From positions 1,589,501 to 1,653,500 of the forward strand of contig NZ_BAABWK010000001.1 of assembly GCF_040362765.1 (NCBI RefSeq): a stretch of 64,000 nt of DNA, given 5' to 3'. Every line of letters starts with the position of its first letter. Position 1 is the stretch's first letter. The position numbers and the translations under genes were made by a program. Source of the DNA: Pyruvatibacter sp. HU-CL02332. GTDB taxonomy: Bacteria; Pseudomonadota; Alphaproteobacteria; CGMCC-115125. The notes below the pieces were generated by a model, which saw nothing but the letters and a program-made list of their open reading frames with translations, had not been told where the DNA came from and searched no databases. Below, piece after piece: positions 28,414 through 30,189 of the stretch.

Positions 28414-28502
28414 GGCACCGTCTGACACGCCCTTAAGGCTGCCCAATTTCGTTCCATTCGTTAACGCCAAAGGTTAACATACTCCCATCAAGAAGAACGT
28501 GC

Positions 28503-28517
28503 GTTCCTATAATGTTC
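28503..28517 (+). promoter_or_regulatory. Candidate LexA (SOS) box upstream of comM/yifB
   Basis: The sequence is GTTC-CTATAAT-GTTC, an exact match to the direct-repeat LexA box GTTC(N7)GTTC of Alphaproteobacteria. Its spacer contains a perfect TATAAT (28508-28513), which could be a -10 hexamer; no good -35 is seen 16-18 bases upstream. It is 140 bp before the comM start. Confidence 0.6.
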
Positions 28518-28656
28518 GTGTTACGGTCCATTTTACAGAAGTGGATTGGGGATAATCCTACTCGGTTGTCAAGTTGACCTCGACTTGCGGAACATTTGCA
28601 GGCGACGTCTCAACGAGGCAGCTCGGCATTTAAATCCTGGGTGCGAGGGCAGGACG

Positions 28657-30189
28657 ATGGTGGCGCGGATCAATACTGTCGCCTTTGAAGGCGTTGAGGC
28701 ACGAGATGTAGGTGTCCAGGTCCAGATTTCGCCTGGCGTCCCCGCTTTCACCGTTGTGGGCCTGGGTGACAAGGCAGTTGCCGAAAGCCGCGAACGGGTA
28801 CGCGCCGCTCTCACCGCCATCGGTCTGGCGCTGCCGCCCAAGCGCATCACCGTCAATCTGGCGCCCGCCGACCTTCCCAAGGAAGGCAGCCATTATGATC
28901 TGCCCATCGCCCTTGCCCTGATGACCGCTCTGGGCGTTATCCCGCAGGACGCCATGGATGGGTTGTGTGTGCTCGGCGAGCTTGGTCTGGACGGCAGCAT
29001 TGCGCCGGTCACTGGTGCCTTGCCAGCCGCGATTGCTGCCAATGCAGCTGATCGCGGCCTTGTCTGTCCCGAGACCTGCGGGCCGGAAGCGGCCTGGGCC
29101 GGGGACATTGAGATCATTGCGCCCGCAACGCTTCTTGAGTTCGTCAATCACATCAAGGGTGTTCAGGTCCTGCCTGTGCCACGGCCCGGCACGCCGCCGC
29201 AGGTGGGCACGGTGCCAGACATGGCGGACATCAAGGGCCAGGAAACCGCCAAGCGTGCGCTCGAAGTGGCCGCCGCCGGGGCGCACAATCTGCTGTTCGT
29301 TGGCCCTCCGGGCGCGGGCAAGTCGATGCTGGCCAGCCGGTTGCCCGGCATTCTGCCGCCCATGACCCCCAAAGAGATGCTGGACGTCGCCATGGTGGCG
29401 TCCGTTGCCGGTGTTTTGGAAGGTGGAGCCCTCAGTCCCGATCGGCCTTTTAGGGCACCGCATCATTCAGCGTCCATGGCCGCCCTTGTGGGCGGTGGCA
29501 TCAAGGCCAAGCCCGGCGAAGTCTCGTTGGCCCATAACGGCGTGCTGTTTCTCGATGAATTGGCCGAATTTGCCCGCCCGGTGCTTGATGCCTTGCGGCA
29601 ACCCCTGGAAACAGGCTCTGCCGTCATCGCCCGGGCCAACCACCATGTGAGCTATCCGGCCCGCGTGCAGCTGGTCGCTGCCATGAATCCCTGCCGCTGC
29701 GGCTTTGCCAGTGAGCCCGGCTTGGCCTGCGGGCGCCTGCCGCGCTGTGCTCAGGACTATCAAACGAGGGTCTCAGGCCCGCTGATGGACCGAATTGACA
29801 TCCAGCTTGACGTGCCACCGGTTTCCGCTGCCGACATGCGCCATGGGGTGGCCGGTGAACCAAGCGCTGCCATTGCGGCACGGGTCAAAGCCGCCCGCGA
29901 AATCCAGACACAGCGATATGCTGAGCTGACAGACGGACAGAACATCATCACCAACGCTCAGGCGGACGGTCGGGTGTTGGAAAAAGTTGTTCAACTGGAT
30001 ACGGCGGGCCTTGATCTGATGGACAAGGCAGCGGAGTCCATGCGCCTGTCCGCGCGCGGATATGTGCGCGTATTGCGTGTGGCCCGCACCCTTTGTGATC
30101 TTGAAGGTGGTGGTCCCGTGACCCGGGCCCATCTGGCTGAAGCCCTGAGTTTCCGCCGGGCGCCCGCGCAGACCATTGTTGCTGCGTGA
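28657..30189 (+). CDS. comM: ComM/YifB family Mg-chelatase-like AAA+ ATPase
   Basis: The 510-aa protein is a YifB/ComM AAA+ ATPase, known in Vibrio as a hexameric branch-migration helicase for integrating foreign DNA. The N-terminal ChlI-like domain (VQVQISPGVPAFTVVGLGDKAV) precedes Walker A GPPGAGKS at residues 216-223 and Walker B VLFLDELAEF. FRAPHHSASMAALVGGG and the cysteine-rich MNPCRCG...CGRLPRC zinc-type segment are typical. Start ATG 28657 follows AGGGCAGGA. A candidate SOS box lies upstream. Whether it acts in recombination here is inferred. Confidence 0.93.
   Translation: MVARINTVAFEGVEARDVGVQVQISPGVPAFTVVGLGDKAVAESRERVRAALTAIGLALPPKRITVNLAPADLPKEGSHYDLPIALALMTALGVIPQDAMDGLCVLGELGLDGSIAPVTGALPAAIAANAADRGLVCPETCGPEAAWAGDIEIIAPATLLEFVNHIKGVQVLPVPRPGTPPQVGTVPDMADIKGQETAKRALEVAAAGAHNLLFVGPPGAGKSMLASRLPGILPPMTPKEMLDVAMVASVAGVLEGGALSPDRPFRAPHHSASMAALVGGGIKAKPGEVSLAHNGVLFLDELAEFARPVLDALRQPLETGSAVIARANHHVSYPARVQLVAAMNPCRCGFASEPGLACGRLPRCAQDYQTRVSGPLMDRIDIQLDVPPVSAADMRHGVAGEPSAAIAARVKAAREIQTQRYAELTDGQNIITNAQADGRVLEKVVQLDTAGLDLMDKAAESMRLSARGYVRVLRVARTLCDLEGGGPVTRAHLAEALSFRRAPAQTIVAA

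Follow-up and report, generated by a model that had tools for sequence, protein, structure and literature searches.

Does LexA control comM/yifB in Pyruvatibacter sp. HU-CL02332, or is the LexA-type repeat upstream of this gene a fortuitous match? The gene (28657..30189, + strand, in the 64,000-nucleotide stretch of DNA that was analyzed, hereafter the window) encodes a 510-aa putative branch-migration helicase with ChlI, Mg_chelatase, and Mg_chelatase_C Pfam domains. Its most likely start is the ATG at 28657, based on homology and on a gagggcagg just 5′ of it, and a glutathione synthetase gene precedes it on the same strand. ComM has been described as the canonical helicase for branch migration during the transformation of Gram-negative bacteria (PMC11612176). 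ComEC and DprA are also encoded in the genome, and lexA, with a box of its own, lies near comEC on the opposite strand (G000:C2:475906-478468). The initial annotation had proposed SOS control of comM on seeing an exact GTTC(N7)GTTC about 140 bp before the gene. This box, GTTCCTATAATGTTC, is indeed present at 28503..28517 (+ strand), 139 bp from the likely ATG. From comparative sequence evidence, we consider it highly probable that the box functions as an operator through which LexA would repress comM until DNA damage occurs.

Parts of the predicted operator and candidate promoters

The order is represented here by four genomes, all from one genus, and in each of the four species an exact box is found 5′ of comM at the same place and on the same strand. 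The half-sites of these boxes (GTTCCTATAATGTTC, GTTCCTGTAATGTTC, GTTCCCGCAATGTTC, and GTTCATTTAATGTTC) are constant while the spacer changes. A near-palindrome, GAACGTGCGTTC (GAAC-N4-GTTC, 28495..28506, unstranded), overlaps the first operator half and is genus-invariant, and the stretch AGAACGTGCGTTC (28494-28506) is wholly invariant in the four species. The near-palindrome and a pair of GTTAAC palindromes (28460-28465 and 28473-28478, unstranded) had both been described previously, and both are where they were reported. The GTTAAC pair occurs only in this genome and in G001, whose ComM is 97% identical, and is absent from the comM promoters of G002 and G003. Because the pair is not conserved in the genus, a role for it is unsupported, and it is probably not part of the comM switch.

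The operator spacer contains a perfect TATAAT hexamer at 28508-28513, which the initial annotation took to be a -10 element covered by the operator. The hexamer is as described; its use as a -10 is harder to sustain. LexA could bind the box and control a -10 lying inside it, an arrangement that the perfect hexamer favors, but the three congeners have TGTAAT, CGCAAT, and TTTAAT at this position, a promoter scan found no -35 at 16-18 bp, and in more distant relatives the same type of spacer (NNNTAAT) sits upstream of the -35. We rejected TATAAT as the -10 because it is not kept in the genus and has no -35 at the right distance, and we regard control through it as unlikely. A better candidate is the probable extended -10 TGTTACGGT at 28519..28527 (+ strand), whose pattern, TGNTAYGGT, is invariant in the four species. 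With this element, the box would span approximately positions -31 to -17 relative to a transcription start near 28534. The comM promoter is not certain because its -35 is weak or absent.

The comM box against chance

A chance match, with comM outside damage regulation in this species, would fit the abundance of the motif. Exact GTTCN7GTTC is not enriched genome-wide, with 63 copies versus 88 of a reversed control, and 2 copies are found in the window versus 1.69 expected. The bare exact motif is therefore at chance frequency and carries little information in this genome. Against a chance origin, the half-sites are conserved in four species despite the changing spacer, and the same element recurs in front of comM in 47 of the 77 distant loci (see below), so that we judge such an origin to be very improbable.

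What sets real sites apart is an AT-rich spacer together with the neighboring gene. A spacer with at least 5/7 A/T is found in 13 exact sites, 9 of which flank repair/SOS-type genes: lexA, imuA (assigned by eye from its sequence, without a Pfam match), ssb, dnaE, uvrD, comM, a C5 methylase beside uvrB, an exonuclease/helicase pair, and a radical-SAM gene. Among the remaining 50 exact sites, recA, which also carries a box, is the sole neighbor of this type (Fisher p = 3e-7 for AT-rich spacer versus repair/SOS neighbor, the gene classes having been assigned after the list was seen). The comM box ranks third among the 63 exact sites with a matrix derived from 48 boxes that precede comM in relatives, and 10th with an own-genome SOS matrix, for which eight SOS-type boxes apart from that of comM were used. 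The sites above it in the latter ranking are seven of the matrix-building boxes, uvrD, and L050, a box described below. No other site in the window reaches its own-genome SOS score, and six Markov-simulated 64-kb sequences contained no site as high by this matrix. By this score, and by conservation in the genus and in distant comM promoters, the comM copy is above chance.

Several other boxes in the genome are recorded here in their own right. One lies 214 bp before mraZ (L005:2001-2015; G000:C1:386463-386477), which usually opens the cluster of division and cell-wall genes, and G001 and G002 also keep an exact box there, though its spacer differs; our literature search found no paper linking LexA to mraZ in this group. 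High-scoring boxes are also found before the C5 cytosine DNA methylase gene (L006:2001-2015; G000:C1:464917-464931), which comes after an apparent uvrB, between genes for an HTH regulator and a DUF6456 protein (L050:6912-6926; G000:C2:888920-888934), and 26 bp before the radical-SAM gene (L052:2001-2015; G000:C2:1081587-1081601). An SOS-regulated splB-like radical-SAM gene has been predicted in this class (PMC3323433).

The comM box across Alphaproteobacteria

A scan of related Alphaproteobacteria for the box upstream of comM/yifB had been proposed as a check. Besides the four genus loci, an exact box lies on the coding strand in 47 of the 77 named alphaproteobacterial comM loci outside the genus with 200 bp upstream. 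When the own genus is included (81 loci), control motifs are rare (reversed, 3; N6, 3; N8, 1; N5 and N9, 0 each), and none of 588 windows inside comM itself contains a box. The named set is skewed to close matches, largely Hyphomicrobiales; an even class-wide draw, in which 67 loci were scanned and three misplaced ones left out, gave a box in 6 of the 64 correctly placed comM loci. On the ComM tree, the box label takes 15 changes versus 37 in shuffles, and at least 9 of the 15 are forced by supported branches. The association of box and comM is therefore phylogenetically clustered but has been gained or lost several times. The LexA-comM link, as predicted from these boxes, is frequent among the sampled Hyphomicrobiales and patchy across Alphaproteobacteria. 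SOS (LexA) control of comM, as suggested for this locus, is strongly supported by conservation.

The boxes of the relatives are located mostly 56-86 bases 5′ of the start codon, and up to 153; our box stands farther from the start codon than in most relatives, which counts against the operator reading, as does the lack of a box in many alphaproteobacterial lineages. In the relatives, a TTG directly follows the box on its 3′ side (the last two bases of TTG in 49/50 rows), and TANNNT is found 17 bases past the TTG hexamer, giving a TTGNNN-N17-TANNNT promoter in which the predicted operator touches the -35. We dismissed a GTTC-like sequence 11 bp downstream as a third half-site, since in relatives that stretch corresponds mostly to the conserved TTG of their -35. 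The least credible reading makes the GTTAAC pair a CtrA site that places comM under cell-cycle/competence control, in line with the CtrA sites predicted at Com genes of Dinoroseobacter shibae (PMC6473078), but its spacing is TTAA-N9-TTAA, not N7, the full TTAA-N7-TTAA site occurs nowhere in the window, and the pair is missing from G002 and G003.

A conserved leader block between the probable operator and the gene

A 64-bp block, GATTGGGGATAAT..CTC.GTTGTCAA.TTGAC...GAACATTTGYAGGC (28544..28607, unstranded), is conserved in the four species. It occurs once in the genome, which rules out a repeat, and the operator-plus-leader stretch has no match in any other genus among 289 genomes. The block includes a GTCAA-N-TTGAC element and a GAACATT mirroring the second half of the operator. 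A known RNA was discounted for want of an Rfam match, and the stems drawn by RNAalifold consist mostly of invariant pairs and so are nearly without covariation support. An N-terminal extension of ComM was also rejected, as the G003 open frame is only 511 aa. A DnaA-box-like TTATCCCCA is located in the block at +44 from the start of the LexA box, and a perfect TTATCCACA stands at the same +44 offset in two related Caulobacteraceae MAGs; none was seen in the class-wide sample. Dual control of the genus comM, by LexA and by a second, undescribed regulator (possibly DnaA) acting at 28544-28607, is conceivable, and we rate it as doubtful. If true, DnaA at the leader block would tie comM expression to the replication state.

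Proposed regulation and comparison with known systems

The features expected of a LexA operator are found together at the comM box: a direct repeat, an SOS-like spacer and score, conservation at orthologues, and a genome that encodes both RecA and a LexA with S24 peptidase and DNA-binding domains. In this genome, similar boxes lie 5′ of lexA, imuA, ssb, dnaE, and uvrD, and that of lexA is conserved in the genus. It is very likely that LexA represses comM; its binding, and the repression and induction that would follow, are predicted from sequence. In undamaged cells, a LexA dimer would sit just upstream of the comM promoter, probably overlapping it, and would keep transcription low, the promoter under LexA most likely being the extended -10 at 28519-28527. 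DNA damage would activate RecA and bring about LexA self-cleavage. Expression of comM would then rise along with that of lexA, imuA, ssb, dnaE, and uvrD, and the cell would gain a branch-migration helicase for use in recombinational repair.

The same gene is linked to another global regulator in D. shibae, where comM has a predicted CtrA site (PMC6473078), whereas here it has a LexA box and the window lacks a full CtrA site. The closer parallel is Caulobacter crescentus. The initial annotation knew of no settled report of comM in the LexA regulon; one exists, as PMC3323433 includes comM among the C. crescentus genes for which SOS regulation had been reported earlier, with Erill 2004 and da Rocha 2008 as its sources. 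The present case is therefore a well-supported new example, not a new idea. The C. crescentus system, as cited there, and the present one share the gene, the GTTCN7GTTC motif, and a repression that is inferred, and two Caulobacteraceae MAGs examined here carry a comM box. They differ in that Pyruvatibacter belongs to another order, its box lies ∼139 bp rather than ∼55 bp 5′ of the start codon, and an extra conserved leader block is present here between the two. LexA control of comM would thereby extend from Caulobacter to another order, a pattern suggesting that ComM serves damage repair there, besides the uptake of foreign DNA.
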